A stretch of DNA of 41,967 nt from Kordiimonadaceae bacterium (GTDB taxonomy: Bacteria; Pseudomonadota; Alphaproteobacteria; Sphingomonadales; Emcibacteraceae), in contig JABJKT010000088.1 of NCBI GenBank assembly GCA_018660225.1, positions 1-41,967 on the forward strand, written 5' to 3'. How positions within the stretch are numbered: position 1 is the stretch's first letter; each line of letters opens with the position of its first letter. The notes below the pieces were generated by a model that saw nothing but the letters and a program-made list of their open reading frames with translations, made no database searches and was not told the origin of the DNA. Below, piece by piece: positions 4,350 to 39,180 of this stretch. The translations under genes and the position numbers were made by a program.

Positions 4350-4360
4350 TAATTTCTCCC

Positions 4361-5353: not shown

Positions 5354-5355
5354 AT

Positions 5356-6338: not shown

Positions 6339-6340
6339 TT

Positions 6341-7801: not shown

Positions 7802-7816
7802 TATTCGCTCCAATTG

Positions 7817-9043: not shown

Positions 9044-9065
9044 TTTTATTTCCCATTTTATTTTG

Positions 9066-11643: not shown

Positions 11644-12732
11644 GTGTCGCTCATGCTTGAAAATATAACGCTGACAGAGAACGACCAGCCGCATATTTAT
11701 GAGACAAATCTTCGCTTGGAAAAAGCGACCATGAATGTGCTGCTTGGCGCGACACTTTCCGGCAAAACAACCCTTATGAGGCTAATGGCCGGACTTGATA
11801 AACCAAGCTCGGGAAGTATTTTATGGAACGATGAAGATGTCACCGGTGTGCGGGTTCAGGACCGCGATATAGCCTTTGTTTATCAGCAGTTTATCAATTA
11901 TCCGTCGCTTACGGTTTATGAAAATATCGCATCGCCGCTTCGACTTATGAATAAAAACAGTGCTGACATTGATAAGGCCGTCAGACAATGCGCCGACTTA
12001 ATGAAGCTCTCGTCTTTTCTTACACGAAAACCACTTGAACTGTCCGGTGGACAGCAACAAAGATGCGCCCTCGCCCGGGCACTGGTTAAAGGGTCGGGGC
12101 TGGTTTTGCTTGATGAACCACTGGCTAATCTGGATTATAAATTACGCGAAGAACTACGCGCCGAAATTCCGAAAATTTTTGCAGATTCCGGCGCCATTTT
12201 TGTTTATGCCACGACTGAACCGGAAGAAGCGCTACTGCTAGGCGGCAATACGGCGACGCTCCATGAGGGGCGCATTACCCAGTTTGGCAAAACATCCACC
12301 ATATACCGTCAGCCAAAAGATGCTACCACGGCACGGATATTTTCAAATCCACCGATGAATTTTCTTAAACTAAGTAAATCTGGCAACAAAATCACCTTTA
12401 GTGACGGAACAAATGCAAAGGCCAGTGAGGCTTTATCGAAATTAGGCGATGGGGACTATATAGCAGGTTTTAGGCCTAACCATCTTGAGCTTGCACAACA
12501 TAGCGACATGGCCATTAAATTTAACGCAAAACTTGATGTGACTGAAATAACCGGATCTGAAACTTATATGCATATGCGCCATGGTGGTGAACGCTGGGTG
12601 GGGCTGGTCCACGGCGTTCATGATTTAACACTCGGTGAAGAAGTGTCCGTTTTTCTTGACCCGTCGCATATTTATACATTCTCGCAGGATGGCAATATGG
12701 TTCTTCCAGCGTTTTATGCGAAGGGGATATAG
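11644..12732 (+). CDS. glpS: ABC transporter ATPase, GlpS-type
   Basis: A 362-residue MalK/UgpC-like ATPase. Walker A is GATLSGKT (35-42), the variant characteristic of GlpS of the rhizobial glycerol importer; Q-loop Gln81; intact signature LSGGQQQR (133-140); Walker B LVLLDEP; D-loop ANLD. The switch (H-loop) reads VYATTEP, so the usual His is Thr191. A regulatory OB-like domain follows residue ~235. Translation starts at GTG (11644) with AGGGG six bases upstream; an ATG three codons later is too far from it. The gene opens a six-gene transporter operon and pairs with the following ATPase. The substrate is glycerol in the studied homologue but no glycerol enzymes are near here. Confidence 0.9.
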   Translation: MSLMLENITLTENDQPHIYETNLRLEKATMNVLLGATLSGKTTLMRLMAGLDKPSSGSILWNDEDVTGVRVQDRDIAFVYQQFINYPSLTVYENIASPLRLMNKNSADIDKAVRQCADLMKLSSFLTRKPLELSGGQQQRCALARALVKGSGLVLLDEPLANLDYKLREELRAEIPKIFADSGAIFVYATTEPEEALLLGGNTATLHEGRITQFGKTSTIYRQPKDATTARIFSNPPMNFLKLSKSGNKITFSDGTNAKASEALSKLGDGDYIAGFRPNHLELAQHSDMAIKFNAKLDVTEITGSETYMHMRHGGERWVGLVHGVHDLTLGEEVSVFLDPSHIYTFSQDGNMVLPAFYAKGI

Positions 12733-12734
12733 CC

Positions 12735-13793
12735 ATGGCAAAAATCACCCTTTCCAATCTGGCCCATAGTTATACATCCGATAATGAATACGCCCTTAAA
12801 ACCATGAACCATGTCTGGAATGATGGGGAGGCTTACGCGCTGCTTGGTCCTTCGGGCTGCGGCAAAACCACTTTGCTCAATATTATTTCTGGATTGCTCG
12901 CACCGTCGCAGGGGCAGGTTTTATTTGATGATCAGGATGTAACAACCCAAGATACAGCACACCGAAATATCGCCCAGGTTTTTCAGTTTCCGGTGGTTTA
13001 TGACACGATGACGGTACGGGAAAACCTCGCCTTCCCGCTTAAAAACAGAAAAATGAGCGCTAATTATATTGAAAAACGTGTCGCCGATATTGCATCAATG
13101 ATTTCGCTCAATGATATTTTAGATAAAAAAGCCAACGGACTTACTGCTGATATAAAACAAAAAATAAGTCTTGGTCGTGGGCTGGTGCGTGAAGACGTGA
13201 ATGCTATCCTTTTTGATGAACCGCTCACGGTTATTGACCCGCAAATGAAATGGGAACTACGTACTGAACTAAAAGCACTGCATCAGCGTCTCGGCCACAC
13301 GATGATTTATGTAACCCATGATCAGACCGAAGCACTAACCTTTGCTGATAAAGTGGTCGTGATGTCGGACGGTGAAGTGGTGCAGATCGGCACACCGACA
13401 GAACTATTTGAAAAACCGGCTCACACATTTGTCGGTTTTTTCATCGGCTCACCAGGAATGAACGTGCTTGGCGCTGAAATTAGCGGCAACAAAGCCCGAA
13501 TTGGCGGCCATGAACTAGACCTCGGCCATGGCTATCAAAACCTAAGCGGAAAGTTGGAAATTGGTATTCGACCTGAATTTGCGTCACTTTCCAGAAACCC
13601 GGATGATCTGCCGATAACAATTAACCGCATCGAAGATGTGGGCCATTATAAAATAGTTAGAGCCAGCCATCAGGATATGGATATTAATATCATTTCTGAT
13701 GAAGGTGCTGAGATTTTCGAAGATATGAAATTTGTCAGTTTCGATAGCTCAAAAATCAACATCTATGCCGATGACTGGTTGGTGGAACCATGA
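12735..13793 (+). CDS. glpT: ABC transporter ATPase, GlpT-type
   Basis: A 352-residue partner of the preceding ATPase. It has canonical Walker A GPSGCGKT (38-45), Q-loop Gln84, Walker B AILFDEP and an intact switch His195 (VTHDQTEAL), followed by an OB-like C-terminal domain. The signature, however, is degenerate: LTADIKQKISLGRGL replaces LSGGQ. Together with the partner, whose signature is intact but whose switch His is lost, this predicts one working and one defective ATP site per heterodimer. An AAGGGG site precedes the ATG two codons after the previous stop. The 3' end overlaps the first permease gene by four bases (ATGA). Confidence 0.9.
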   Translation: MAKITLSNLAHSYTSDNEYALKTMNHVWNDGEAYALLGPSGCGKTTLLNIISGLLAPSQGQVLFDDQDVTTQDTAHRNIAQVFQFPVVYDTMTVRENLAFPLKNRKMSANYIEKRVADIASMISLNDILDKKANGLTADIKQKISLGRGLVREDVNAILFDEPLTVIDPQMKWELRTELKALHQRLGHTMIYVTHDQTEALTFADKVVVMSDGEVVQIGTPTELFEKPAHTFVGFFIGSPGMNVLGAEISGNKARIGGHELDLGHGYQNLSGKLEIGIRPEFASLSRNPDDLPITINRIEDVGHYKIVRASHQDMDINIISDEGAEIFEDMKFVSFDSSKINIYADDWLVEP

Positions 13794-14665
13794 AGAAAAC
13801 GACCAATCAAAAAGCATGGTTCATGGTGCTACCGGTTTTATTACTGGTGGCCTTTTCGGCGATTATCCCGCTGATGACGGTGGTCAATTATTCGGTGCAG
13901 GATACGTTTGGCAATAACGAATTTTTCTGGGTTGGTCTTGAATGGTTTGAAGAAATTCTCGGCTCCGAGCGTATGCATGATGCACTCGGCCGTCAGGCGA
14001 TATTCACCACCATTATTTTACTTATTGAAGTGCCCCTTGGTATTTTTGTTGCCCTTCATATGCCGAAAAAATCAGGCGTGTGGTCTAGCCTTTGCCTGGT
14101 TCTCTGCGCGCTTCCCCTGCTCATTCCGTGGAATGTTGTCGGCACCATCTGGCAGATCTTTGGCCGCATTGATATTGGCCTGCTTGGATATGCGCTTGAC
14201 CAAATAGGCATTGATTATAACTACACGCAAGACAGTTTCGCCGCATGGATTACCATCATCGTTATGGATGTATGGCACTGGACATCTCTAGTTGTTCTGC
14301 TGAGCTATGCAGGGCTTAAATCAATTCCTGATGCTTTTTACCAAGCGGCAAAAATTGATCAGGCCAGCCGCTGGAGCATTTTTCGCCATATTGAACTGCC
14401 GAAAATGAAAGGCGTGCTGCTGATCGCAATCCTGCTGCGCTTCATGGATAGTTTCATGATTTATACCGAACCTTTTGTTGTCACAGGCGGCGGGCCAGGT
14501 AACGCGACGACATTTCTTTCGATAGATCTGGTAAAAATGGCCATTGGTCAGTTTGATCTTGGACCGGCGGCGGCGTTTTCGCTGATATATTTTCTGGTAA
14601 TTTTACTTGTTTCATGGGTTTTTTACACGGTGATGGTCCATTCGGATAAGGAGAGCGGGTCATGA
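13790..14665 (+). CDS. glpP: ABC transporter permease, GlpP-type (MalF-like)
   Basis: A 291-residue inner-membrane permease with six predicted helices; the first spans about residues 9-30. The cytoplasmic EAA loop that docks on the ATPase is visible as YQAAKIDQASRWSIFRHIE. The Pro-rich segment YTEPFVVTGGGPGNATTFL matches carbohydrate/polyol-type importers. It starts within the stop codon of the ATPase gene and overlaps the next permease by four bases, so the four genes are translationally coupled. It forms the channel with the second permease. Substrate follows that of the system, which is not determined. Confidence 0.9.
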   Translation: MKKTTNQKAWFMVLPVLLLVAFSAIIPLMTVVNYSVQDTFGNNEFFWVGLEWFEEILGSERMHDALGRQAIFTTIILLIEVPLGIFVALHMPKKSGVWSSLCLVLCALPLLIPWNVVGTIWQIFGRIDIGLLGYALDQIGIDYNYTQDSFAAWITIIVMDVWHWTSLVVLLSYAGLKSIPDAFYQAAKIDQASRWSIFRHIELPKMKGVLLIAILLRFMDSFMIYTEPFVVTGGGPGNATTFLSIDLVKMAIGQFDLGPAAAFSLIYFLVILLVSWVFYTVMVHSDKESGS

Positions 14666-25900: not shown

Positions 25901-27982
25901 TTAGTCGTCAGGAAGGGCGTAGGCCAGAAGCTCACCGCCGTAATTACCGCCGCTAACGGCGACGACAATATATTGCTTTCCGTTTAACATATATGTCATG
26001 GGTGAGCCTGATTGCCCGCTTGGCATCCATACTTCACCAACTTCCACACCGGTCATTTTATTATAAGCGCGCAGCATACCGCCGCGTTCACGGTCGCCGG
26101 GACTGGTGGCAAAAGGATCACCAATAATCGCCAGTGTTTTTGTAATGACCATGCCGACATCGGCACCCTGGCCTGTGCGAGGAATATCCAAACCTGCAAG
26201 TTTTGGATGGTTACGCACATTATCCGGTGTTTCACCGTGGGCGATCCGCCAAAGCGGCTCACCCGTGTTCAGATCAATCGCCGCAACAATACCGTATGGT
26301 GGCTTTAATATTGGTAGTCCCTCAATTCTCAACGTTGGGGCCACGGCGGTTGGAGTAGTTGAGGGCGGTGGTGGTGGACTTTTGGGTGCGTCAGGATTTT
26401 GCCCTGCGCCGCCGGCACCTGATATCCTGAGTGGTTGTCCAATGCGGCCACCGACATAATCAAGGTTTGAAAAATCGTCAGTCGGCGCGATCAGTGAAAT
26501 GGAACCAATTTGCGAAGTTGATGCCGGTAAATAGACGATCCCGGTTTCAGGGTCAAACGCCCCGCCCGGCCAATTGGTGCCGCCGGTGGCGTTACCAATG
26601 GCAATCGCGCCCATAATGCCGTTTATATCACCAAGGATCGGAGGATTATAAAGCGTTGCCCCTTCCCAGTCCCATTTTTCAAGTCTTTTAAGGGCTTTAG
26701 CCTTTAATTCTGGTGTAAAATCAATCAAGCCATTTTCAACATCTAGTTCGGGACGGCCGTAGATAAATTCATCGCGCGGGCGTGGCTGGGTTGGTGAATA
26801 CCATTCCCCCGGCACATCACCGGCAGGTACGGCGACTTCCGGTATCGGCCAGATCGGCTCACCAGTTAAGCGGTCAAACACATAAAGCATGCCCTGTTTC
26901 ATGGGCTGTGCGACAATTTCACGTTTTTCCCCTTCAAATTCAACGTCCATCAAAAGCGGAGCCGACGATACATCATGATCCCATATTGGGTGATGGACAA
27001 ATTGGAAATGCCAGCGATATTCGCCAGTATTTAAATCAACAGCAACCAGGCTATCACCAAACAAATTATCGCCCGGACGGTGACCGCCGTAATAGTCTGA
27101 TGACGGACTTTCCACTCCGAGGAAAACCAGTTCATTTTTTTCGTCCACAGTGATTTGGGTCCAGACACCTGTGTTGCCATTATTTTCCCATGAATTATCA
27201 AGCCACGTTTCATTGCCGAACGAACCGGGGCGTGGAATAGGGTCAAACTGCCAGACAAGTTTGCCGCTGAGCACATCAAATGCCCGCACAAGCCCCTTGG
27301 TGTTATCATGATTATCAATGGCAAGGCCCGATCTCATGGACGAGCCGACGATGATTAAATTACGCACAACAGTTGGTGTCGAATGAAGACCCACTTCGCC
27401 GGTCATCAGATCTATTTGAACTTCGTTACCGTGCACGACACCGATTTTAAGATCAAGAATACCGTTGCCGTCCGTGCCAAAACTATTGATGGGAATACCT
27501 GTATGAGCATCAAGTGCCACGAGCTTATAACCGGTTGTTACATAATAAATGCGGTCATCGCCATTACCGTCTGACCAGTAAGATAGGCCACGTCCCGAAA
27601 GTTGGCGTGGGGCAAGACCAGCGCGCAGCCCTTCACGCATACTGTGAAGCCACATCAATTCCCCGGTCCCAGCGTCCAGCGCATATGCGGCGCGGCGGGT
27701 TCCGCCGGTACCGTAAATAACACCGTCAATCATCAGCGGTGTTAATTCAAATAAAAATTCAGGCTGTGAGCCGAGACTTTTTGTATCAAACGACCAGACA
27801 AGCTCAAGGTCAGCGAAGTTATCCGCGTTAATCTGATCAAGTGGTGAATAGCGCGATCCTTTAAGATCACCAGTATATTGATGCCATTCGCCGCCAGCCG
27901 TTCCCGGCTCATCTGCATGCGCAAAAATTCCAAAAACAAAAACCATGAACAGTGCCACAGATGTAAAAAGCTTATTTTTCAT
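25901..27982 (-). CDS. Periplasmic PQQ-dependent dehydrogenase (glucose dehydrogenase-like)
   Basis: A 693-residue quinoprotein with a signal peptide (cut after FAHA). Propeller motifs start with GEWHQYTGDLKGSRYSPLDQ, the usual first blade of PQQ alcohol/glucose dehydrogenases; tryptophan-docking repeats such as LDAGTGELMW, FDVLSGKLVWQF and IDLNTGEPLWRI recur through the chain. There is no N-terminal membrane domain (unlike E. coli Gcd), no C-terminal cytochrome c domain, and no vicinal Cys pair of the methanol dehydrogenase type. A proline run (PPPPPSTTPT, about residues 530-545) is an inserted linker. Substrate (sugar, polyol or alcohol) cannot be decided. GGGA precedes the ATG. Confidence 0.9.
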   Translation of the reverse strand: MKNKLFTSVALFMVFVFGIFAHADEPGTAGGEWHQYTGDLKGSRYSPLDQINADNFADLELVWSFDTKSLGSQPEFLFELTPLMIDGVIYGTGGTRRAAYALDAGTGELMWLHSMREGLRAGLAPRQLSGRGLSYWSDGNGDDRIYYVTTGYKLVALDAHTGIPINSFGTDGNGILDLKIGVVHGNEVQIDLMTGEVGLHSTPTVVRNLIIVGSSMRSGLAIDNHDNTKGLVRAFDVLSGKLVWQFDPIPRPGSFGNETWLDNSWENNGNTGVWTQITVDEKNELVFLGVESPSSDYYGGHRPGDNLFGDSLVAVDLNTGEYRWHFQFVHHPIWDHDVSSAPLLMDVEFEGEKREIVAQPMKQGMLYVFDRLTGEPIWPIPEVAVPAGDVPGEWYSPTQPRPRDEFIYGRPELDVENGLIDFTPELKAKALKRLEKWDWEGATLYNPPILGDINGIMGAIAIGNATGGTNWPGGAFDPETGIVYLPASTSQIGSISLIAPTDDFSNLDYVGGRIGQPLRISGAGGAGQNPDAPKSPPPPPSTTPTAVAPTLRIEGLPILKPPYGIVAAIDLNTGEPLWRIAHGETPDNVRNHPKLAGLDIPRTGQGADVGMVITKTLAIIGDPFATSPGDRERGGMLRAYNKMTGVEVGEVWMPSGQSGSPMTYMLNGKQYIVVAVSGGNYGGELLAYALPDD

Positions 27983-29155: not shown

Positions 29156-30355
29156 TCAAACACGCTCGATGACCATGGCGATGCCTTGGCCTACGCCTAT
29201 GCACATGGTGCACAGCGCGTATTTTCCGTCCCCTCGCTCAAGCTGATTTACGGCTGTGGTGATAAGGCGTACGCCGCTCATGCCTAGTGGATGACCGAAT
29301 GCGATCGCGCCGCCTTGCGGGTTGATACGCGGGTCATCGTCGGCTAGCTCTAACGTACGAGTACAGGCGAGAACCTGTGCGGCGAAGGCTTCGTTAAGCT
29401 CAAGGATATCTATATCATCAAGTGACATTCCAAGACGGGCGAGCAGTTTTTGGCTTGCGAAAACCGGGCCGATACCCATAGTGCGCGGCGGCACGCCAGC
29501 AACGGCCATGCCGAGAATTTGGGCGCGCGGTGTAAGGCCGTGTTTTGTTGCGGAAGTCTCAGACGCTATCAGTGTCGCCCCTGCCCCGTCATTAATACCG
29601 GATGCATTACCAGCGGTGATGGTACCACCTTCAAATATCGGGCGGAGAGTTGCCATTTTTTCCAGTGTTGAGGCACGAGGATGTTCATCAACATTAAAAA
29701 TTATAGGATCGCCTTTTCGTTGCGGTATCGAAACAGGTGTTATTTCATTTACCGTATGACCGGCCTCAATGGCGGCAGCGGCTTTTTGCTGGCTCCAAAA
29801 TGAAAATTTATCCTGATCTTCACGGCTGATATTTAGCTCGCTCGCAAGATTTTCGGCCGTTTGCGGCATAGCGTCTGTGCCATATTGTTCGTGCATTTTT
29901 TTATTAATAAAACGCCACCCCATTGTCGTGTCATACATTTTTTGTGTGCGGCCGAAAGCGCCTTCTGCTTTGCCCATAACAAATGGCGCGCGGGACATAC
30001 TTTCAACTCCGCCAGCGATGCAGAGCTCTGCTTCACCAACCATGATAGAATTAGCGGCAATACCAACCGCATTAAGGCCAGAACCGCAAAGACGGTTAAT
30101 GGTCGATGCTGCCACTTCAAGTGGAAGTCCTGCCAAAAGTCCGGCCATACGGCCGACATTGCGGTTATCTTCACCGGCCTGATTAGCGCAGCCATAGGTG
30201 ATATCATCCACCGCAGACCAGTCGACGTCTTTATTTCGTTCCATCAATGCGGATAGCGGAATTGCCGCTAGGTCATCAGCACGAACAGTCGCTAGAGCGC
30301 CGCCATAACGACCAACAGGAGTACGAATTGCATCACAAATAAAAACGTCTTTCAT
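29156..30355 (-). CDS. pcaF: 3-oxoadipyl-CoA thiolase (PcaF-type acetyl-CoA acyltransferase)
   Basis: A 399-residue thiolase. The nucleophile Cys90 is in STINRLCGSG, the general base His355 in AIAFGHPLGMSG and the second Cys385 in LCTMCIGVGQG. The stretches VFICDAIRTPVGRYGGALA, YGCANQAGEDNRNVGRMAG and GGVESMSRAPFVMGKAE follow PcaF of Pseudomonas closely, so the favoured reaction is 3-oxoadipyl-CoA plus CoA to succinyl-CoA and acetyl-CoA; other beta-ketoacyl-CoA substrates remain possible. AAGGGA precedes the ATG. It is the last gene of a five-gene operon, 9 bp after the aminotransferase gene. Confidence 0.9.
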   Translation of the reverse strand: MKDVFICDAIRTPVGRYGGALATVRADDLAAIPLSALMERNKDVDWSAVDDITYGCANQAGEDNRNVGRMAGLLAGLPLEVAASTINRLCGSGLNAVGIAANSIMVGEAELCIAGGVESMSRAPFVMGKAEGAFGRTQKMYDTTMGWRFINKKMHEQYGTDAMPQTAENLASELNISREDQDKFSFWSQQKAAAAIEAGHTVNEITPVSIPQRKGDPIIFNVDEHPRASTLEKMATLRPIFEGGTITAGNASGINDGAGATLIASETSATKHGLTPRAQILGMAVAGVPPRTMGIGPVFASQKLLARLGMSLDDIDILELNEAFAAQVLACTRTLELADDDPRINPQGGAIAFGHPLGMSGVRLITTAVNQLERGDGKYALCTMCIGVGQGIAMVIERV

Positions 30356-30364
30356 AATATCCCT

Positions 30365-31672
30365 TTAAAACTGATTTTTCATTTTCTTAAGGCCACCGAG
30401 AACGGCTTCAGCAAGTCTGTCTATTTCTCTTTCAGTCATAACAGTTGAAAGCACACCGGAGCAAGTATTGATCATCATGATGCCATCATCGAATAAATGA
30501 TTAAGTAGGGTTTTTGTAAGCGCAGATTCTCTTGGCGTCACATACCCATCACGGTAACTAACTGGTTCCACCTCTTTCATATGAATGCGGAACATTGAGC
30601 CCGCACCAGATACACAGGCCGGAACATCAGCCAGATTGATTGCTTCCGAAATGGAGTTTCTCGCATATTCGGCCAGTTTATTGATTTTCAAGACGGCTTC
30701 CTCATCAAAAAGTTCCATGGCAACGCGGCCCGCCGTCATCGTGATTGGGTTTGCGGAAAATGTGCCGGAATGGGGGAAAAGAACTTTTTCCGCCAGCGGA
30801 TCCATCACATCCATCACATCAGCACGGCCAGCAAGGGCACCAACAGGGAAACCACCGCCGATCATTTTACCCAAGGCGGTAAGATCAGGGTTTACCCCAT
30901 CATACCATTCCTGCGCACCACCATAATTCATGCGGTAGGTGATCACTTCATCAAATATCAACAAGCTGTCATTTTTACGAGTCCAGTCAAAAATTGCTCT
31001 TACAAAATTATCATGGGCCGGGATTAAGCCAATCCGGTGGGGAAGAACATCAAGAAGCACACAGGCGAGGTCGTCCGCATTTTCTTCTAGAATTTTTATC
31101 GCCAGCTCAGGGTCATTAAAAGGAATGATCACCACATCATCAAGTGCCGCCTGCGGCGTACCGTAAGCAACGGGAATACTTTTTGGATTTTCCTGATCGC
31201 CCCAGTTGCCCGGCTTTGATGTCTGGCTCACTTCAGCGTAATCATAAAGGCCGTGGTAAGCCCCTTCGGCTTTGGCGATTTTTGTCCGCCCCGTAAAGGC
31301 GCGCGCCGCTTTAAGGCAGCTCATCACCGCTTCGGTGCCAGAATTTACAAAACGCATTTTTGCAAAACTATCACTTCGGCTAACGATATGTTCCGCATAG
31401 ATAATTTCCGCTTCCGTACCAATGGTAAAAGCGGTACCCTTTGCAAGTTGTTCGCTTACAGCTGCGGTAATTTCCGGATGGGCATGACCATGAACGAGCG
31501 AGCACATATTATTGGCAAAATCGACCCGCTGAACACCCTCAACATCAGTGACATAGGCCCCTTCGCCGCGTTCCACATAAAGCGGATGAGGTTTGCGCAG
31601 GATCGTGTTTCGGCTGCAGCCACCGGGCATTACTTTTAGGCCACGGTCATATAAATCAGAACTTTTTGACAT
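30365..31672 (-). CDS. Class III aminotransferase, beta-transaminase/GSAM-like
   Basis: A 435-residue PLP enzyme. SGTEA (111-115), DEVITYR (241-247) and the PLP lysine Lys269 in LTALGKMIGGGFPVGA define the class III family, in the glutamate-1-semialdehyde aminomutase-like branch. The pattern MPGGCSRNT with Arg21 and the later GRADVMDVMDP...HSGTFSANPITMTAG resemble Variovorax beta-phenylalanine aminotransferase, an enzyme for beta-amino acids. It is unlikely to be HemL, since it lies between CoA-transferase and thiolase genes. I infer that it deaminates a beta-amino acid to the beta-keto acid used by the CoA transferase. AAGGA precedes the ATG. Confidence 0.85.
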   Translation of the reverse strand: MSKSSDLYDRGLKVMPGGCSRNTILRKPHPLYVERGEGAYVTDVEGVQRVDFANNMCSLVHGHAHPEITAAVSEQLAKGTAFTIGTEAEIIYAEHIVSRSDSFAKMRFVNSGTEAVMSCLKAARAFTGRTKIAKAEGAYHGLYDYAEVSQTSKPGNWGDQENPKSIPVAYGTPQAALDDVVIIPFNDPELAIKILEENADDLACVLLDVLPHRIGLIPAHDNFVRAIFDWTRKNDSLLIFDEVITYRMNYGGAQEWYDGVNPDLTALGKMIGGGFPVGALAGRADVMDVMDPLAEKVLFPHSGTFSANPITMTAGRVAMELFDEEAVLKINKLAEYARNSISEAINLADVPACVSGAGSMFRIHMKEVEPVSYRDGYVTPRESALTKTLLNHLFDDGIMMINTCSGVLSTVMTEREIDRLAEAVLGGLKKMKNQF

Positions 31673-31682
31673 TTAATTTCCT

Positions 31683-32333
31683 TTATGCTGCAACCAAAGT
31701 GCAGCCAGTTCGTTCCTGTACATAGTCAAAATCGACACCCGGAGCGAGCTCAACAATTTTGAAGCCCTCAGCCGTTACATCAATCACGGCAAGGTCGGTA
31801 TAAATGCGGCTTACTACAGCTTGTCCGGTAAGAGGAAATGTGCATTTTTCAACCAGTTTCGGATAGCCTTTTTTAGTAACGTGCTGGGTTATAACATTGA
31901 TGGTTTTTACGCCAGCCACCAAATCCATAGCCCCGCCAACCGCTGGAATAGCGTCTGGATTACCGGTTGACCAGTTAGCCAGGTCACCATTTTTTGCCAC
32001 CTGCATCGCACCAAGTACACAAATATCAATATGACTGCCGCGGATCATGGAAAAACTGTCCGCATGATGAAAATATGCGGCGCCAGGAATTGCGGTCACC
32101 AGTTTTTTACCCGCGTTAATCAGTTCCGGGTCTTCTTCGCCCGGCGCAGGTGCATCACCCATGCCAAGCAGGCCATTTTCCGTATGATAAATTACTTCAC
32201 GGCCTTCGAGCACATAACGCACGACTTTTTCCGGAATGCCGATGCCAAGATTTACATATGCACCATTAGGAATATCCTGCGCGGCACGCTGCGCCATTTG
32301 TTCACGGTCCCAGCCAATAATTTGTTCACTCAT
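31683..32333 (-). CDS. pcaJ: 3-oxoadipate CoA-transferase subunit B
   Basis: A 216-residue beta subunit of a 3-oxoacid CoA-transferase. The catalytic glutamate is in YHTENGLLGMG (Glu52), and the stretches APGEEDPELINAGKK, FHHADSFSMIRGSHID and IPAVGGAMDL follow PcaJ very closely. With the alpha subunit it moves CoA from succinyl-CoA to a 3-oxo acid, 3-oxoadipate by homology. Its ATG overlaps the stop codon of the subunit A gene by four bases, with GGGGAGAG upstream. Acetoacetate (SCOT-like) activity is the main alternative. Confidence 0.92.
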   Translation of the reverse strand: MSEQIIGWDREQMAQRAAQDIPNGAYVNLGIGIPEKVVRYVLEGREVIYHTENGLLGMGDAPAPGEEDPELINAGKKLVTAIPGAAYFHHADSFSMIRGSHIDICVLGAMQVAKNGDLANWSTGNPDAIPAVGGAMDLVAGVKTINVITQHVTKKGYPKLVEKCTFPLTGQAVVSRIYTDLAVIDVTAEGFKIVELAPGVDFDYVQERTGCTLVAA

Positions 32334-33040
32334 GGGTAGCTCTCCCCGGCATTAACCAGTACGGATTCGTGTAAAGGATCAGAGACCGTAATGACTTGAT
32401 CAACAAATATACCCGGTGTGACAACCGTTTCCGGGTCAAGATCACCAACAGGGACAAACTCTTTAGTTTGCACGATGGTCGTGTTCGCCGCCATAGCCAT
32501 TACGGGGGCGAAATTACGGGCAGTTTTATTATAAATAAGGTTGCCGTAACGATCCGCTTTCAGGCATTTGATAAGCGCAAAATCCGCAGTCAGTCCGTAC
32601 TCAAGAACGAAATCACGGCCATTGATATTGCGAACTTCTTTACCTTCGGCTAGCGGTGTTCCCACTGATGTTGCAGTATAAAAAGCAGGAATGCCAGCGC
32701 CACCTGCTCTGATCCGCTCAGCGAGTGTGCCTTGGGGAACCAGTTCCAGTTCAATCTCGCCTTTTGTATAAAGATCAGGAAAAACAAGAGAATTAGCTGA
32801 TTTAGGGAATGAGCAAATCATTTTCGCCACTCTGCGGTTTTCAATCAGTGCAGCAAGACCCACATGGCCGGAGCCCGTGTTATTATTAACGACGATAAGG
32901 TCTTTTGCCCCTTGATCGATCAGCGCGTGGATCAGCTCGATAGGGCTTCCCGCCTCACCAAAACCTCCGATCATCACGGTGGCGCCATCATGGATTTCTG
33001 CCACCGCTTCCTCAACCGAGTTTATTTGTTTATTGATCAT
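32330..33040 (-). CDS. pcaI: 3-oxoadipate CoA-transferase subunit A
   Basis: A 236-residue alpha subunit. The glycine-rich TVMIGGFGEAGSPIELIHAL, CSFPKSANSLVF, ELELVPQGTLAERIRAGGAG and LIYNKTARNFAPVMAMAA are all hallmarks of PcaI/ScoA proteins that bind the CoA moiety. It forms the heterotetramer with the product of the next gene. AAGG lies before the ATG, 19 bp after the radical SAM gene. No other beta-ketoadipate pathway genes (pcaGHBCD or cat) are present in the window, so its keto acid must come from elsewhere, probably the operon's own aminotransferase. Confidence 0.92.
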   Translation of the reverse strand: MINKQINSVEEAVAEIHDGATVMIGGFGEAGSPIELIHALIDQGAKDLIVVNNNTGSGHVGLAALIENRRVAKMICSFPKSANSLVFPDLYTKGEIELELVPQGTLAERIRAGGAGIPAFYTATSVGTPLAEGKEVRNINGRDFVLEYGLTADFALIKCLKADRYGNLIYNKTARNFAPVMAMAANTTIVQTKEFVPVGDLDPETVVTPGIFVDQVITVSDPLHESVLVNAGESYP

Positions 33041-33059
33041 AACCTTAAGCCTCTATGAA

Positions 33060-34472
33060 TTAAGCTTTAATACTAAATAGACCTGCTTCATCATAGATCA
33101 CCCGGTCTTTATAACCGTCAAACCAAATGGCGTCCGGGTTACGGCCAACAATCGCTGTATGACCTTTCTTCGGCGCATCTTCCGCTGAACGAAGAAGCTT
33201 AAATATAACCACACCATTTTCACCGCCTTTGACGCCTTCCATTGGCTCATTTGTCACGGCGACAACTTCTGTTTTGCCGTAATAATGGGTGATGGATAGT
33301 CTGGCATGTGCTTCGACACCGGAAAGACCACGCTGCGATGTATTTAAGATGTTCCAAGCTTCTTCAATTGTAACGTTAAAGGCTTTATGGCCAACAATAT
33401 CGCGACCACAGAAGAAATAATGGTTTTCAACTTTCATGCGTCGCAGTTCACGTTGCATAATGCGAAGCGCATCTGAATCGTTATTGATATTTTTAATAAT
33501 TGGTGATTGGTTATCAACGGTAATCCAGCCACGCTTGCCAAATTCTGCCACTGCACGTTTTGTAGCAGGCACCCATTCAAGGCCGCCACCTTCAACATCA
33601 ATATAATTACCGTCTTCGTCTTTGGCGAGAAACTCATCCGGGTGATTAAAATGGATCATGAAACGGATTTTCGTTTCTGGGTAGGCAACGTGGAAATCAT
33701 CAACCATTTTCCAGAAACTATCATCAAAACGTTCCGGGAAAAACGCAAGCTCTTTAGTACCTAGACGGATACTTTCGATACCCGCTTCTGAAAGAGCCGC
33801 CCACCATGAGGCAATGCCTTTATTAGCAAGAACCATTGGATCGCCGCCAGACATAAGAATTTCACGAAGTTTTTCACGGCCCGTATCAGGATGATGGCCG
33901 CCATTTTCTTCAACTAATCTATTATGCTCACGAATATAATCCGTAAGCTCCTGAATTTGCGCAAGTCCTTTTGCCTGAATAGAGCCATCTTCACGAATAA
34001 TTTCTTTTTTGGCGATTAGTTCTTCCCGGTAACAAAAGCGGCAATGAGCCGAACAAGTAGAGGCCACATAAATAAGACCAAGTTCATATTTATGAATAAG
34101 ACCTTCAACAGGGCTATAGCTCATTTGTTTTCCGGGATCTTCTGAACCGTCAAGATCAAAAGTTTCATTTGGGCTAGCTTTAATCAATGTTCTGATCGGT
34201 GAACTCATTCTTGCACGTTCAAAATAATGCCTAGTCATTTTAACAGGCATACGCGCTTCAAGATCACGGTCTGTGCCTTTGAGCGCTGAAATGGCATCAA
34301 TTTCTTCCTGGCTATAAAAACTCTGCATATCTTCATCAACTTTACCATCGATGAATTTTTGTAGGCCAGCAACAATTTTACGGTCGTATTTGGCGTTTTC
34401 AACAGTGCTCAGGAAGTCAGCTTCGCGCTCGCTAGGCTGGTATTTCTTTTTGATCGGTTTTTGAACATTCAT
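33060..34472 (-). CDS. KamA-family radical SAM 2,3-aminomutase of unknown substrate
   Basis: A 470-residue radical SAM/PLP protein. The iron-sulfur motif C-x3-C-x2-C is CSAHCRFC (Cys140/144/147), followed by Arg149 aligned with the carboxylate-binding Arg134 of clostridial lysine 2,3-aminomutase. LMSGGDPMVL, FNHPDEF and the PLP lysine Lys400 (HYYGKTEV) are also conserved. The two Asp residues that hold the lysine side chain in the clostridial enzyme (293, 330) are replaced: FFCGRD gives Gly356-Arg357, and the second site is Ile/Thr. A substrate with a distal carboxylate is therefore plausible. ATG at 34472 has AAGGGG upstream; a longer frame lacks a site. First gene of the operon. Confidence 0.88.
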   Translation of the reverse strand: MNVQKPIKKKYQPSEREADFLSTVENAKYDRKIVAGLQKFIDGKVDEDMQSFYSQEEIDAISALKGTDRDLEARMPVKMTRHYFERARMSSPIRTLIKASPNETFDLDGSEDPGKQMSYSPVEGLIHKYELGLIYVASTCSAHCRFCYREELIAKKEIIREDGSIQAKGLAQIQELTDYIREHNRLVEENGGHHPDTGREKLREILMSGGDPMVLANKGIASWWAALSEAGIESIRLGTKELAFFPERFDDSFWKMVDDFHVAYPETKIRFMIHFNHPDEFLAKDEDGNYIDVEGGGLEWVPATKRAVAEFGKRGWITVDNQSPIIKNINNDSDALRIMQRELRRMKVENHYFFCGRDIVGHKAFNVTIEEAWNILNTSQRGLSGVEAHARLSITHYYGKTEVVAVTNEPMEGVKGGENGVVIFKLLRSAEDAPKKGHTAIVGRNPDAIWFDGYKDRVIYDEAGLFSIKA

Positions 34473-34646: not shown

Positions 34647-35537
34647 ATGTTAGGACAAAGAAGGCTCATTCCCAGCACCAGTATGCTGATGGCATTTGAA
34701 GCATCCGCCAGAAACGGCAGCTTCACTCTTGCGGCGCAGGAACTTAACCTGACCCAGGGGGCGATCAGTCGGCAAGTAAGCGCACTTGAAAAACAGTTGG
34801 GTGTCGTGCTTTTTAAACGCATAAAAAAATCGATCAAATTATCTGAAGCTGGTGAAGTTTACGCCAGCGAAGTCGCAAGCGCACTTCGAACAATCCGAAA
34901 CGCGTCTCTCAACGCCATGAGCGATACACAAGGCAAAACCCTCAACCTTGCCATCCTGCCAACTTTCGGTATGCGCTGGTTAATGCCAAGATTTCCAGAT
35001 TTTCTAAAAAAGAACCCGCAAATCACCGTTAACTTCACCAGCAAACTTTCCCCGTTTGATTTTGCCAGTGAAAATTTACACTGTGCCATTCACTTTGGCC
35101 ATCCCAATTGGCCGAGCACAGAAGGCACCTATTTGATGAGCGAGCAAGCCGTCCCAGTCGCTGCGCCGTCTTTCATTGGTGATCATACCATCAGACAGGC
35201 AGAAGAACTGACCCATTTACCACTACTTCATATTGAAACAAGACCTGAGGCTTGGGCCGATTGGTTTAAACAAAATGGCATTAGCCCCCCAAAGGACAAA
35301 GGTATGGTACTAGAACAATTTTCTATGGTCAGCCAAGCCGCCATCGCCGGAATGGGTGTGGCGATCCTGCCCCATTTTCTTATTGAAACCGAACTTGAAC
35401 GCGGTGAGCTTGAGATATTAATGAGCATTCCACTGGAAAATAGCGCCGGGTATTACCTGATCACACCAAAAAGCCATGAAAGCTATGCCCCCGTCGTCGC
35501 CCTGAAGGAATGGTTACTTGAACAGACAAAAGAATAG
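34647..35537 (+). CDS. LysR family transcriptional regulator, GcvA-like
   Basis: A 296-residue LysR-type regulator. The N-terminal winged helix-turn-helix is clear (FEASARNGSFTLAAQELNLT, then QGAISRQVSALEKQLGVVLF), and the effector domain begins near residue 95 (LNLAILPTFGMRWLMPRF), the pattern of the GcvA/AmpR branch. It is divergent from the KamA-PcaIJ-aminotransferase-PcaF operon, the standard layout for a LysR regulator and its target. The inducer would then be an amino acid, keto acid or pathway intermediate. Only a weak GGA precedes the ATG. Confidence 0.92.
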   Translation: MLGQRRLIPSTSMLMAFEASARNGSFTLAAQELNLTQGAISRQVSALEKQLGVVLFKRIKKSIKLSEAGEVYASEVASALRTIRNASLNAMSDTQGKTLNLAILPTFGMRWLMPRFPDFLKKNPQITVNFTSKLSPFDFASENLHCAIHFGHPNWPSTEGTYLMSEQAVPVAAPSFIGDHTIRQAEELTHLPLLHIETRPEAWADWFKQNGISPPKDKGMVLEQFSMVSQAAIAGMGVAILPHFLIETELERGELEILMSIPLENSAGYYLITPKSHESYAPVVALKEWLLEQTKE

Positions 35538-35605: not shown

Positions 35606-36436
35606 ATGGCCGTATCACGTCAAGAAATGTTAAAAAGACTTCATAAACAAATTGACGCCGGCGTTCCGATCGTCGGCTGTGGTGCGGGAACGGGAATTTC
35701 TGCAAAATTTGCTGAAGCTGGCGGGGCGGATCTGTTGATCATTTATAATTCCGGACGTTACCGTATGGCAGGACGTGGATCGCTCGCAGGATATATGTCT
35801 TACGGTGATGCCAATGGTATCGTCATGGAAATGGGCGCTGAAGTGCTTCCCGTTGTAAAAGACATTCCAGTTTTGGCTGGCGTATGCGGCACAGATCCGT
35901 TTCGCCTTATGCCCGTTTTTCTAAAGCAGTTAAAAGACGCCGGTTTTTCGGGTGTACAGAACTTTCCCACAATGGGTTTGATTGACGGTAACTTCAGAGA
36001 TAACCTCGAAGCGACAGGCATGGGCTATGATAAAGAAGTCGAAATGATCCGGATCGCTCATGAAATGGATATGTTCACTTCGCCTTATGTCTTTAATGAA
36101 CAAGAAGCCATCGATATGGCCAAAGCCGGCGCCGATCAATTAGTGGCTCATGTGGGGCTAACCACCGCGGGCAGCATTGGCGCGTCAGTTGCTTATAGTC
36201 TGGATGAAACCATCGAAAAAGTAATGAGCATTGCTGCAGCAGGTCGCAGCGTTAACCCAGAAGTCATAGTGATATGCCACGGTGGACCGTTAGATGAGCC
36301 GGAATCAGTTGAAATCGCCCTATCTAAAATGCCCGGTATTAACGGCTTCTTCGGCGCATCAAGTATTGAAAGACTGCCAACCGAGCGCGCAATTACAGGA
36401 CAGGTAGAGGCTTTCAAAAAGCTGCCTTTGGCTTAA
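35606..36436 (+). CDS. TIM-barrel protein of the phosphoenolpyruvate hydrolase family
   Basis: A 276-residue TIM barrel of the PEP_hydrolase type. Seen are GCGAGTGISAKFAEAGGADL, IIYNSGRYRMAGRGSLAGYM, VLAGVCGTDPFRLM, GVQNFPTMGLIDGNFR and VAHVGLTTAGSIGA, with the phosphate-binding-like C-terminal FFGASSIERLPTE. Members are named for a proposed phosphoenolpyruvate hydrolase activity or appear as N-terminal domains of sensory proteins and Tm-1-like viral resistance proteins; the true reaction is unsettled. AAGGA precedes the ATG. It lies between the LysR gene and the aromatic oxygenase genes on the same strand and might hydrolyse a ring-cleavage product, but that is conjecture. Confidence 0.82.
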   Translation: MAVSRQEMLKRLHKQIDAGVPIVGCGAGTGISAKFAEAGGADLLIIYNSGRYRMAGRGSLAGYMSYGDANGIVMEMGAEVLPVVKDIPVLAGVCGTDPFRLMPVFLKQLKDAGFSGVQNFPTMGLIDGNFRDNLEATGMGYDKEVEMIRIAHEMDMFTSPYVFNEQEAIDMAKAGADQLVAHVGLTTAGSIGASVAYSLDETIEKVMSIAAAGRSVNPEVIVICHGGPLDEPESVEIALSKMPGINGFFGASSIERLPTERAITGQVEAFKKLPLA

Positions 36437-36497
36437 CGTTCCCTAAAAGCATTATCCTTTTGCCTGAACTAATAGCGGTAATCATTGACTGAATCAT

Positions 36498-36515
36498 CAC
36501 TGTTATGATAATAAC
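36498..36515. promoter_or_regulatory. Palindromic box upstream of the extradiol dioxygenase-like gene
   Basis: CACTGTTATGATAATAAC, 33 bp before the start codon. It matches 37566-37583 at 17 of 18 bases, and GTTATNATAATAAC is a near-perfect palindrome, so both are likely operators for one regulator. Confidence 0.5.
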
Positions 36516-36548
36516 ATTATTAAATGAACATAAATAAAGGGTATCTTC

Positions 36549-37556
36549 ATGGCAGAAATTGTTTTTGGGTTTGGCACTTCTCATAGTCCGCTGCTTTCAA
36601 CGCCGCCGGATATGTGGCATTTACGGGTTCAGGCTGATAAACAAAACCCATCACTGGAATTTCGCGGCAAATCCTATGTATTTGATCAACTTGTGAAGCT
36701 TCGAGCAGATGAAAATCTTGTGCATCAGTCATCACTTCCCGTGCGCACAAAAAGACATGCCGCATGTCAGAGTTCAATTGAGCTATTAAAAAACAAATTA
36801 ACAAAAGTTGATCCTGATATTCTGATTATTATCGGTAATGACCAGCGTGAAGTTTTTAGTGAAGATTTTACCCCGGCCATAAGCATGCTAAATGGAGACA
36901 CCGTTGAACACTCAGCCATTTCGCCCGAACGATTAAAAAAAATGCCGCCCGGGATTGGCATCGCCGCGCAAGGGTCATCTGCTAAAGAAGATACTACCTA
37001 CCCAATTGATAAAGAGCTTTCAAACCATATACTTAGCGCCCTTAACGGCGAAGGTTTTGATATCACAGCCATGAAAACACTGGAAGCCGGCCCCAAGAAA
37101 CGAAAGGGCATGTCACACGCTTACGGCTTTGTTTATAATAAACTTATGACCAAAACTATTCCTGCAGTTCATATTTGTCTCAATACTTTTTATCCCCCAA
37201 ACCAACCAAGTGCCGCAAGGTGCGTTGCGCTCGGCGAAGCGATCGGACGAGCCGTTACAAATTATGACAATAATTTGCGAGTTGCCATATGCGGTTCAGG
37301 CGGACTAACCCATTTTGTCATTGATGAAACATTTGATAAAAAAGTCAACGAAGGGCTTAAAAATCTCGATATGGATATATTATCAAGCCTGCCGGAAAAT
37401 TATTTAACATCAGGGACTTCTGAAATTAAAAACTGGATCACTACGGCGGCTATTTTAAAAGGCAGCGGGCTAAAGATAGATATGTTTGATTATATCCCCT
37501 GCTACAGATCAGAAGCCGGAACCGGTAATGCAATGGGCTTTATGACCTGGGAATAA
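36549..37556 (+). CDS. Class III extradiol ring-cleavage dioxygenase-like protein (LigB family)
   Basis: A 335-residue protein of the LigB superfamily, which cleaves catecholic rings next to the diol using Fe(II). Visible are the first ligand in FGFGTSHSPLL (His12), the catalytic-His region GSGGLTHFV (His255) and the third-ligand motif GTSEIKNWI (Glu292). The second ligand motif, normally a D-H pair after a hydrophobic strand, reads IIIGNDQREVF, so Gln99 replaces His. AYGFVYNKLM and NTFYPPNQPSAARC are family features. The neighbouring HpaB-like hydroxylase could supply the catechol. Given the substitution, a different reaction or metal is possible. AAGGG precedes the ATG. Confidence 0.78.
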   Translation: MAEIVFGFGTSHSPLLSTPPDMWHLRVQADKQNPSLEFRGKSYVFDQLVKLRADENLVHQSSLPVRTKRHAACQSSIELLKNKLTKVDPDILIIIGNDQREVFSEDFTPAISMLNGDTVEHSAISPERLKKMPPGIGIAAQGSSAKEDTTYPIDKELSNHILSALNGEGFDITAMKTLEAGPKKRKGMSHAYGFVYNKLMTKTIPAVHICLNTFYPPNQPSAARCVALGEAIGRAVTNYDNNLRVAICGSGGLTHFVIDETFDKKVNEGLKNLDMDILSSLPENYLTSGTSEIKNWITTAAILKGSGLKIDMFDYIPCYRSEAGTGNAMGFMTWE

Positions 37557-37565
37557 GTCCTAAAA

Positions 37566-37583
37566 CACTGTTATTATAATAAC
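37566..37583. promoter_or_regulatory. Palindromic box upstream of the HpaB-like gene
   Basis: CACTGTTATTATAATAAC, in which GTTATTATAATAAC is a perfect 14-bp palindrome. It lies 10 bp after the dioxygenase stop codon and 91 bp before the HpaB-like start; a partner site lies before the dioxygenase gene. Confidence 0.5.
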
Positions 37584-37592
37584 TTACCTTAG

Positions 37593-37616
37593 GTGTTATT
37601 GTAATAGCACTTTTTT
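37593..37616 (+). terminator. Possible AT-rich intrinsic terminator between dioxygenase-like and HpaB-like genes
   Basis: GTGTTATT and AATAGCAC can pair (one G-U) around a tiny loop and are followed by six T residues. It would end the dioxygenase transcript. The stem is AT-rich and the sequence also contains a GTTATTGTAAT box, so it may equally be an operator. Confidence 0.35.
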
Positions 37617-37674
37617 CTTGATCATTACGACCATAATCTATAGTCTATCCTGATATTAAATTCAGGAGAATAAA

Positions 37675-39180
37675 ATGGATATTAAGACCACATTAGATAA
37701 ACCCGTCACAGAACGGGCAGAAGAAATGCCATCCTATAAAGGGGTAAAAGGCAAAGGCGTTAAAAATGGCGCCGAGTTTTTAGAAAGCCTTAGAGATGGC
37801 CGTGTGATCTACTATCAAGGTGAGCGCGTGGAAGATGTCACCACCCATCCAGCCTTTAAAGATATGGCCCATAAAATTGCTGAGACCTATGATAAACAGC
37901 ATGATCCTGAATATCAGGACAAAATGAGCTTTGTTGATGAAGACGGTGTCCGCTGTTCTTATTCATATGCCGCACCAAACACCCTTGAAGTACTCGAAGC
38001 CAGAAAAGGCAATACCGAAATTTGGGTAAATGATGCTATGGGCATGCTCGGACGCTTGCCTGATTTCGTCGCCAGTATGACCGTTGGTGTTTATGATTTA
38101 CGCCATGAGCTGGAAAAATTAAATCCTGAGCTTTCTAAAAATGCGGAAAGCTATCTACAATATGCTAGACAGAATGATTTGTGTCTTTCCCACGGACTAC
38201 ATGATCCCTGCATGGATAAATCACTGCGTCCGCCAGAAGATCCAGACCGCTGTGTCCGTGTTGTTAAAGAACGCGATGACGGCATCATTGTTCGCGGCGC
38301 CCGCTTTAACACATTCGGACTTTTTTCCAATGAGATTATGATCTGCCCTACTTACGGCTTTAAACCGGAAGAAAAAGAATATGCTATGTGGTTTACAGTA
38401 CCTTGTGATGCACCGGGCCTGAGCCAGATTGCCCGTGAAAGTTACGGTGGGCGCGACCCACTTGATCACCCTGCATCGGCCGTTTACGACGAAGTGGACA
38501 GCCTGATAGTGTTTGATGATGTGTTTATCCCGTGGGAGCGGGTTTTCCTGTACCGCGAACCTGTTATGGCTAATCAGCTTTTCAGAAGCGGTGTTATGAC
38601 ATGGGCCAGTTTTGCCGGTGGATCACTTTCAATTCTTCGTATGGAAATCTTATGTGCTATTGCTGAAATGCTTGCCAAAACATCAGGCATTATCAAAAGA
38701 CCGGAGGTGGTCGCCAAACTAGGTGAAATGTGCACCTTTACCGGCGCTATCCGCTCAAGTTTTGAGCTATCACTTCTAAAAGCAAGCAAAACCGCCGCCG
38801 GAAATTATAAACCGGCCAAAGCACCGGAAAGACGCGCTTTTACCACAATGGTTTCAGAACGTTTCATTGAACTAGTCGAACATATCGGTACCAGTTCACT
38901 CATCTTCCTTCCCACTGCGAAAGACTGGGATAATCCTGAAATTAAAGATTATCTTGATGTTTATATGCGCGGTAAAGAGAGCTCACCGCTCGACCGTCAT
39001 AAGCTTTGTAAATTTGCCTGGGATCTTACCGGAGACGGTTTCGGGTCACGTCAGCAAATGTACGAACGCTTGCATTCGGGCGATCCCAATGTCATGGCTG
39101 CCAATGCATGGCGCAATACTGATTTAAGTCATGCGAGAGAGCTAATCTCGGATTTTCTTGATCTTGAAGGGGACTATTAA
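37675..39180 (+). CDS. hpaB: HpaB-type FADH2-dependent aromatic hydroxylase
   Basis: A 501-residue protein of the 4-hydroxyphenylacetate 3-monooxygenase large-component family (HpaB/PvcC). The N-terminal GAEFLESLRDGRVIYYQGE, the segment RYS-like SYSYAAPNTLEVLEARK, CLSHGLHDPCMDKS and VYDEVDSLIVFDDVFIPWERVF are characteristic; the acyl-CoA-dehydrogenase-like fold binds reduced FAD supplied by a separate reductase, which is not in this window. It should add a hydroxyl group ortho to a phenol, giving a catechol for the neighbouring dioxygenase-like protein. Substrate is not determined. AGGAG precedes the ATG; the end overlaps the likely start of the MATE gene. Confidence 0.88.
   Translation: MDIKTTLDKPVTERAEEMPSYKGVKGKGVKNGAEFLESLRDGRVIYYQGERVEDVTTHPAFKDMAHKIAETYDKQHDPEYQDKMSFVDEDGVRCSYSYAAPNTLEVLEARKGNTEIWVNDAMGMLGRLPDFVASMTVGVYDLRHELEKLNPELSKNAESYLQYARQNDLCLSHGLHDPCMDKSLRPPEDPDRCVRVVKERDDGIIVRGARFNTFGLFSNEIMICPTYGFKPEEKEYAMWFTVPCDAPGLSQIARESYGGRDPLDHPASAVYDEVDSLIVFDDVFIPWERVFLYREPVMANQLFRSGVMTWASFAGGSLSILRMEILCAIAEMLAKTSGIIKRPEVVAKLGEMCTFTGAIRSSFELSLLKASKTAAGNYKPAKAPERRAFTTMVSERFIELVEHIGTSSLIFLPTAKDWDNPEIKDYLDVYMRGKESSPLDRHKLCKFAWDLTGDGFGSRQQMYERLHSGDPNVMAANAWRNTDLSHARELISDFLDLEGDY

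Follow-up and report, generated by a model that had tools for sequence, protein, structure and literature searches.

Lysine degradation is represented in MetaCyc by eleven pathways, nearly all finishing at glutaryl-coenzyme A (glutaryl-CoA), according to an excerpt of PMC5653290, and a conversion of 2-oxoadipate to D-2-hydroxyglutarate has also been described (excerpt of PMC7286885). The subject of this study is a minus-strand operon at positions 29156-34472 of a 41,967-nucleotide stretch of DNA from a Kordiimonadaceae bacterium (contig JABJKT010000088.1 of assembly GCA_018660225.1; the whole stretch is called the window below), which encodes a KamA-like radical S-adenosylmethionine (SAM) aminomutase, both subunits of a PcaIJ-type CoA-transferase, a class III aminotransferase and a PcaF-type thiolase. 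We consider it probable that the main function of this operon in the window's organism is the conversion of 2-aminoadipate through 3-aminoadipate to 3-oxoadipate.

Starting from L-2-aminoadipate, the product of the epsilon-semialdehyde route of lysine, the KamA-like enzyme, dependent on radical SAM chemistry and pyridoxal 5'-phosphate (PLP), would shift the amino group from C2 to C3 to give 3-aminoadipate, which the class III aminotransferase would convert to 3-oxoadipate. PcaIJ would then form 3-oxoadipyl-CoA at the expense of succinyl-CoA, and PcaF would cleave it to succinyl-CoA and acetyl-CoA, so that 2-oxoadipate and glutaryl-CoA would be bypassed. Lysine would reach 2-aminoadipate in the window genome via saccharopine and then L-piperidine-6-carboxylate dehydrogenase, and in other genomes via a saccharopine-dehydrogenase-family enzyme (maybe lysine dehydrogenase) or lysine 6-transaminase, followed by the same dehydrogenase. 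With slightly less confidence, we regard this as likely to be a complete and widespread lysine-degradation route, in which a new aminomutase and a 3-aminoadipate transaminase would link the saccharopine or transaminase branch of lysine degradation with the lower part of the beta-ketoadipate pathway; the carriers would be environmental bacteria from several phyla, many as yet uncultured. The substrates, the order of the transamination and CoA-transfer steps and the flux through the route in the cell are proposed here from sequence comparison.

Genomic context of the aminomutase gene

The best evidence for 2-aminoadipate as the substrate is the genomic context of L-piperidine-6-carboxylate dehydrogenase, the enzyme that makes 2-aminoadipate. 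One scan of genome contigs with the window aminomutase resulted in 57 related loci, the surrounding genes of which were clustered, with the aldehyde dehydrogenase family forming cluster 8. The L-piperidine-6-carboxylate dehydrogenase model NF050084 (equivalog cut-off 730 bits) was matched beside the aminomutase in L012 (820.5 bits), L018 (766.1 bits) and L024 (736.2 bits) and also, by coordinates and scores, in L023, L031 and L047; cluster 8 also includes aldehyde dehydrogenases of other kinds, in L053 and L054. The distance between the two genes in these six loci was 41-4348 bases (tblastn). On the KamA tree, the six loci fall into three clades, corresponding to three changes (5-95% bootstrap range 3-3). 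The chance expectation calculated from flank lengths and genome sizes was 0.25 loci, with P(≥6) of 2.9 × 10−7 and P(≥3) of 0.002 for a gene that was chosen post hoc.

Co-occurrence was counted in the 50 genomes from which 50 of the 57 loci were drawn, with L009, L052, L053, L055, L056, L057 and L058, mostly fragments, being omitted. NF050084 was matched at E ≤ 1e-95 in 38 of these 50 aminomutase-carrying genomes (31 above the cut-off, six at 721-727 bits and one 455-bit fragment) against 72/289 genomes of the window's class at the same threshold (65 above the cut-off) and 4 of the 14 control genomes (one above the cut-off). Fisher's test gave 7.5 × 10−12 for 38/50 against 72/289 and 4 × 10−5 for the Alphaproteobacteria alone (9/10 against 71/288), both values being uncorrected for kinship. 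Moreover, the saccharopine dehydrogenase C-terminal domain PF16653, which covers related dehydrogenases too, was found in 25/50 genomes with the aminomutase against 2/14 controls, and lysine 6-transaminase (E ≤ 1e-100) in 12/50 against 0/14; one or the other was present in 34 of the 50.

Twenty regions around the dehydrogenase gene were all searched with nine proteins, and open reading frames (ORFs) were listed for 10 of them. A lysine-ketoglutarate reductase (LKR)-like gene, a saccharopine dehydrogenase gene and the NF050084 gene stand in a row in L131, a PF16653 gene adjoins the NF050084 dehydrogenase in L122 and L124, and lysine 6-transaminase (606.3 bits, cut-off 520.8) adjoins it in L129. 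In seven alphaproteobacterial regions (L115-L121), the adjoining gene is of the Lrp type. The genome to which the window belongs (G000; 3.04 Mb in 219 contigs, 94.55% complete) carries LKR-like (PF05222/PF01262) and saccharopine dehydrogenase genes in tandem on contig C67, an arrangement repeated in G002, G005, G006 and G008; the best solved match of the C67 saccharopine dehydrogenase is saccharopine reductase 1e5l (138.7 bits). NF050084 is represented in this genome by two fragments at the extreme ends of contigs C199 and C137. The choice of 2-aminoadipate, which the earlier note had made from family chemistry, is thereby backed by genome comparison, that is, by the adjacency in six loci of three clades, by co-occurrence and by the genes leading from lysine to aminoadipate semialdehyde.

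The order of the operon genes could be assessed in the 47 loci having at least 1.6 kb downstream of the aminomutase gene. The genes that the earlier note had grouped do occur together in relatives, whereas a failure to do so would have refuted its proposal: KamA, PcaI, PcaJ and the aminotransferase (AT) follow each other in the same order and on the same strand in 37 of the 47. At the same time, the five-gene order claimed there is not general, since pcaF is the fifth gene in only 11 of these 37; the general form is the four-gene core KamA-PcaI-PcaJ-AT. Among the other arrangements, the aminotransferase follows KamA and pcaIJ are missing from the next 10 kb (L012, L047), the NF050084 dehydrogenase follows KamA (L018, L023), the remaining operon genes are convergent to KamA (L019, L025), or pcaI-pcaJ-AT lies 8 kb from the KamA ortholog, behind a second aminomutase-like gene (L034); in L027, L042 and L051, the other operon genes were absent within reach of KamA. 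Going by record titles, the 57 loci belong to Pseudomonadota, Planctomycetota, Actinomycetota, Acidobacteriota, Gemmatimonadota, Armatimonadota and Krumholzibacteriota, with Flavobacteriaceae represented only by one short contig of a bin, and the KamA proteins are 58-93% identical across 40 aligned rows. The family is rare: in a sample of 289 from the window's class, only two genomes match at E 1e-60, one of them being the window genome.

Some further arrangements were seen near the aminomutase genes and their relatives. In L041, L045, L046 and L050, a gene for a PcaF-like thiolase (50-53% identical) lies on the opposite strand directly past the aminotransferase gene, forming a convergent version. 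The second aminomutase-like gene of L034 (1902-3605, minus strand), directly before pcaI-pcaJ-AT, encodes 568 aa with a TIGR00238 score of 66.1 (cut-off 199.2) and has, as read by eye, Arg in the matching motif YCAR; it is divergent and looks unrelated, and the same genome also carries the ortholog of the window aminomutase. The other match from the window's class, L173:8532-10175 (minus strand), is a 38% identical aminomutase relative beside a likely class I/II aminotransferase (by eye) and possibly belongs to another aminomutase pathway. In L012 (Mesorhizobium sp. Z1-4), an FdxA-type ferredoxin gene (NF045490, 169 bits, cut-off 135) lies between the aminomutase and aminotransferase genes, and this ferredoxin is a plausible electron donor.

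The operon and its enzymes

The operon read from the sequence in the earlier note is real: five intact ORFs on the minus strand are separated, down the operon, by 19, -4 (an overlap), 10 and 9 bases (Table 1). The aminomutase most likely starts at 34472, because its homologues in L003, L006 and L008 begin with the same MNVQKPI and AAGGGG precedes the ATG at this position. The divergent LysR-family gene could possibly control the operon; LysR-type genes (cluster 7) were found in 13 of the 57 related loci.

Table 1 Genes of the operon and the divergent regulator gene in the window
Feature	Positions	Strand	Remarks
KamA-like radical SAM/PLP aminomutase	33060..34472	-	470 aa (longest ORF to 34577, 505 aa); proposed L-2-aminoadipate 2,3-aminomutase (putative substrate)
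pcaI, CoA-transferase subunit A	32330..33040	-	TIGR02429, 355.9 bits (cut-off 128.5); proposed 3-oxoadipate CoA-transferase
pcaJ, CoA-transferase subunit B	31683..32333	-	TIGR02428, 295.3 bits (cut-off 243.55)
Class III (HemL-like) aminotransferase	30365..31672	-	PF00202, 190.5 bits (cut-off 30.5); proposed 3-aminoadipate transaminase
pcaF, 3-oxoadipyl-CoA thiolase	29156..30355	-	TIGR02430 equivalog, 664.3 bits (cut-off 597)
LysR-family regulator, divergent	34647..35537	+	PF03466 and PF00126 above cut-off

Both CoA-transferase subunits score above the cut-offs of their models (TIGR02429, PcaI/ScoA; TIGR02428, PcaJ/ScoB), and the closest solved chains to PcaJ are succinyl-CoA:3-ketoacid CoA-transferases. 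PcaF gave 533 bits to the solved beta-ketoadipyl-CoA thiolase 6pca. The aminotransferase is HemL-like, yet lies under the HemL cut-off (TIGR00713, 320.9 bits against 527.3); its nearest solved chains are 6k8h (380.8 bits) and ForI (337.3 bits), so that two other groups outscore the nearest named beta-transaminase, 2yku (192.9 bits).

The aminomutase, assigned to the KamA family in the earlier note, is indeed a KamA-like radical SAM protein but falls below every curated KamA-type cut-off: TIGR00238 gave 86.4 bits (cut-off 199.2), TIGR03820 (lysine 2,3-aminomutase) 69.4 bits (cut-off 525.4) and the top-scoring named model, TIGR04368 (glutamate 2,3-aminomutase), 88.2 bits (cut-off 650), and no Pfam family was matched at E 0.001. 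Its best solved relative by both sequence and predicted fold is lysine 2,3-aminomutase 2a5h; Foldseek aligned the predicted structure (mean predicted local distance difference test score 77.6, low near residues 143-200) with 2a5h over 417 columns at E 1.6e-13, with a template modelling score of 0.63 on the target and a root mean square deviation of 7.9. In the numbering of the 505-aa reading, the CxxxCxxC radical SAM cluster motif (C175/C179/C182) is invariant in 40/40 aligned relatives, and so are R184, R392, R426, H431 and K435.

In lysine 2,3-aminomutase, Asp293 and Asp330 are the acids that hold the lysine side chain. R392 aligns with D293 of 2a5h, a position at which a profile alignment with 12 canonical relatives gives the same result; the window protein has neither an Asp close to the Asp330 position (SITHYYGK) nor the DxPGGGGK loop that is found in all 12. 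The presence of an invariant Arg in place of an acidic lysine-binding residue fits a carboxylate side chain and thus an acidic substrate. K435 probably takes the place of K337, the PLP lysine of lysine 2,3-aminomutase; the profile alignment, a global one intended to place this lysine, was misaligned in its C-terminal part, which was not relied on.

Weighing the proposed route

A number of points count against the proposed route. The comparison with the class was not kinship-matched, and no more than five candidates from each genome were scored in the class search, so that the class count of 72 may be slightly low. The loci come mostly from metagenome bins, and binning errors are therefore possible. 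No NF050084 match at E ≤ 1e-95 was found in 12 of the 50 genomes, namely nine Actinobacteria together with G007 (1.2 Mb), G015 and G034, and in the nine Actinobacteria lysine 6-transaminase (E ≤ 1e-100) and PF16653 were also absent at the thresholds used. Eight of these nine were placed in the tree, where they make up a single clade (100/99); another substrate, or another source of it, may apply there. Outside that clade, the acidimicrobial bin of L030 has a glutaryl-CoA dehydrogenase gene (12718-13899, plus strand; 526.5 bits to 3sf6) directly past KamA-PcaI-PcaJ-AT, pointing to lysine chemistry, but by the ordinary route.

The two NF050084 fragments of the window genome (487 bits on C199, 360 bits on C137) both fall short of the cut-off of 730; their overlapping parts differ in sequence, and they are thus two copies or mixed strains rather than halves of one copy. 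The search of this genome gave no lysine 6-transaminase above the cut-off and four intradiol-dioxygenase matches above it, so that PcaIJF might also serve aromatics there; besides the operon's PcaJ, this genome gave a single PcaJ-like match (51% identical). As for the enzymes, neither the PcaI/PcaJ models nor the solved relatives distinguish enzymes acting on 3-oxoadipate from those acting on acetoacetate, the stretch in which R392 aligns with D293 scores weakly (1.3 and 7.0 bits), and the relatives in the profile alignment are themselves under the lysine 2,3-aminomutase cut-off.

The same substrate could be processed in another order, with the CoA-transferase acting first to make 3-aminoadipyl-CoA and a Kat-like aminotransferase acting on the CoA ester, an order that we hold to be unlikely. 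Kat, which acts on 3-aminobutyryl-CoA, belongs to the class III aminotransferases and resembles HemL (excerpt of PMC3149608), the window enzyme is HemL-like too, and pcaIJ stand ahead of the aminotransferase gene in the operon; however, L012 and L047 have the aminotransferase after the aminomutase and no pcaIJ within the 10 kb downstream, and no Kat model is among the best 25 of the 68 NCBIfam matches. Glutamate or another acidic amino acid, leading to 3-oxoglutarate or a similar product, appears quite improbable as the substrate of the aminomutase, although glutamate 2,3-aminomutase is its top named, if sub-threshold, match (88.2/650 bits), R392 would suit any side-chain carboxylate, and the actinobacterial clade carries none of the lysine-side genes sought. 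A dehydrogenase forming 2-aminoadipate adjoins and co-occurs with the aminomutase, for which we see no reason beside a glutamate pathway, and the PcaF-type thiolase scores above its equivalog cut-off. Aspartate was set aside by reasoning, because its 2,3-shift yields aspartate again.

It is very improbable that the genes stand together for some other reason, for example the synthesis of a beta-amino acid solute, with PcaIJF serving aromatic degradation. The intradiol dioxygenases and the single additional PcaJ-like match of the window genome would suit such a grouping, as would the aromatic genes of the LigB and HpaB families at 36549-39180, but the four-gene order is held across phyla with few other common neighbours, and an aminotransferase ahead of the CoA-transferase or thiolase would serve no purpose in the cleavage of aromatic rings. 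Hardly credible is a lysine 2,3-aminomutase supplying a beta-lysine route like the one reportedly described by Barker in Pseudomonas: the protein agrees in fold and general family with lysine 2,3-aminomutase, whereas the TIGR03820 score is 69.4/525.4, the D293 position is Arg in 40/40 relatives, the DxPGGGGK loop is absent, and the neighbours produce 2-aminoadipate, not beta-lysine. Lysine was likewise rejected as the direct substrate, its acidic side-chain ligand being replaced by Arg and the score lying far below the lysine 2,3-aminomutase cut-off.

If the route from 2-aminoadipate through 3-aminoadipate and 3-oxoadipate is correct, it would add a further fate for a central intermediate of lysine breakdown and would be carbon-neutral, taking six carbons to succinyl-CoA and acetyl-CoA with zero CO2 loss. 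It would also provide an anchor for naming an unnamed radical SAM enzyme family, and a caution to annotators that pcaIJF need not imply aromatic degradation. Note that Mesorhizobium sp. Z1-4 (L012) is a strain record, so that testing in culture may be feasible.

Neighbouring genes and comparison with known systems

Past the LysR gene, positions 35606-39180 (plus strand) encode a PEP_hydrolase-family protein, a LigB-type dioxygenase and an HpaB-type monooxygenase, and clusters of genes of similar size are set near the operon in some relatives. A tryptophan-degradation (kynurenine) cluster occupies 3414-9106 on the minus strand, with a 3-hydroxyanthranilate 3,4-dioxygenase (245.6/220 bits) and a 2-hydroxymuconic semialdehyde dehydrogenase-type protein (833.4/693.25) above their cut-offs, and tryptophan 2,3-dioxygenase-like (295.3/390.7) and tryptophan permease-like (489.5/515) proteins slightly under theirs; the genes at 4361 and 5922, without a match at E 1e-30, resemble by eye a 2-amino-3-carboxymuconate 6-semialdehyde (ACMS) decarboxylase and a RidA-type deaminase. 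A link between the operon and the kynurenine genes was weighed, as some tryptophan routes pass through 2-oxoadipate, and nothing was found to connect them. Additionally, a relative of pyrroloquinoline quinone (PQQ)-dependent dehydrogenases is encoded at 25901-27982 (minus strand), under all three family cut-offs among the matches listed (TIGR03074, 341.7/832.65 bits).

Compared with lysine 2,3-aminomutase (KamA/AblA, 2a5h), the window aminomutase shares the predicted fold, the CxxxCxxC motif and R184, and its conserved K435 may correspond to the PLP lysine. It differs by Arg in place of Asp293, by scores below all curated cut-offs and by additional residues inserted between positions 190 and 235; instead of the DxPGGGGK loop it has a shorter segment that includes the invariant R426 and H431. 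Glutamate 2,3-aminomutase (TIGR04368) is the named model closest in score, yet far from its own cut-off; this enzyme also swaps the lysine-binding aspartates, its residues being Lys and Asn, unlike those of the window protein.

The earlier note knew of no described aerobic pathway of this form. This held in the literature searched, where none was found by a search blind to "2,3-aminomutase" spelled with a comma, and where five names for 3-aminoadipate occurred in only 2 of 5.39 million papers, one about a meteorite and the other having the name just in a reference title on a beta-lactam precursor. The statement needs qualifying by Barker's aerobic beta-lysine route of a Pseudomonas, which did not come up in that literature but is said to have the same general shape (a beta-amino acid, transamination, CoA activation and thiolysis) but to run through a six-carbon diamino acid that is N-acetylated. 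Lysine fermentation with Kat likewise combines KamA chemistry, a HemL-like beta-transaminase, a CoA-transferase and a thiolase in a single pathway, whereas it is anaerobic, uses lysine itself and a 5,6-aminomutase and passes through acetoacetyl-CoA (excerpt of PMC3149608).

The proposed route would be the same as the known 2-aminoadipate branch of lysine degradation (saccharopine, lysine 6-transaminase or pipecolate, then L-piperidine-6-carboxylate dehydrogenase) as far as 2-aminoadipate, and would depart from it there, the fates described in the excerpts of PMC5653290 and PMC7286885 being 2-oxoadipate and then glutaryl-CoA or D-2-hydroxyglutarate. Its final two steps and their enzymes, PcaIJ and PcaF, would be those of the lower beta-ketoadipate pathway, except that 3-oxoadipate would derive from an amino acid and not from an aromatic ring. 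The enzymes are thus of known kinds, and the new element is the aminomutase together with the joining of two known half-pathways.

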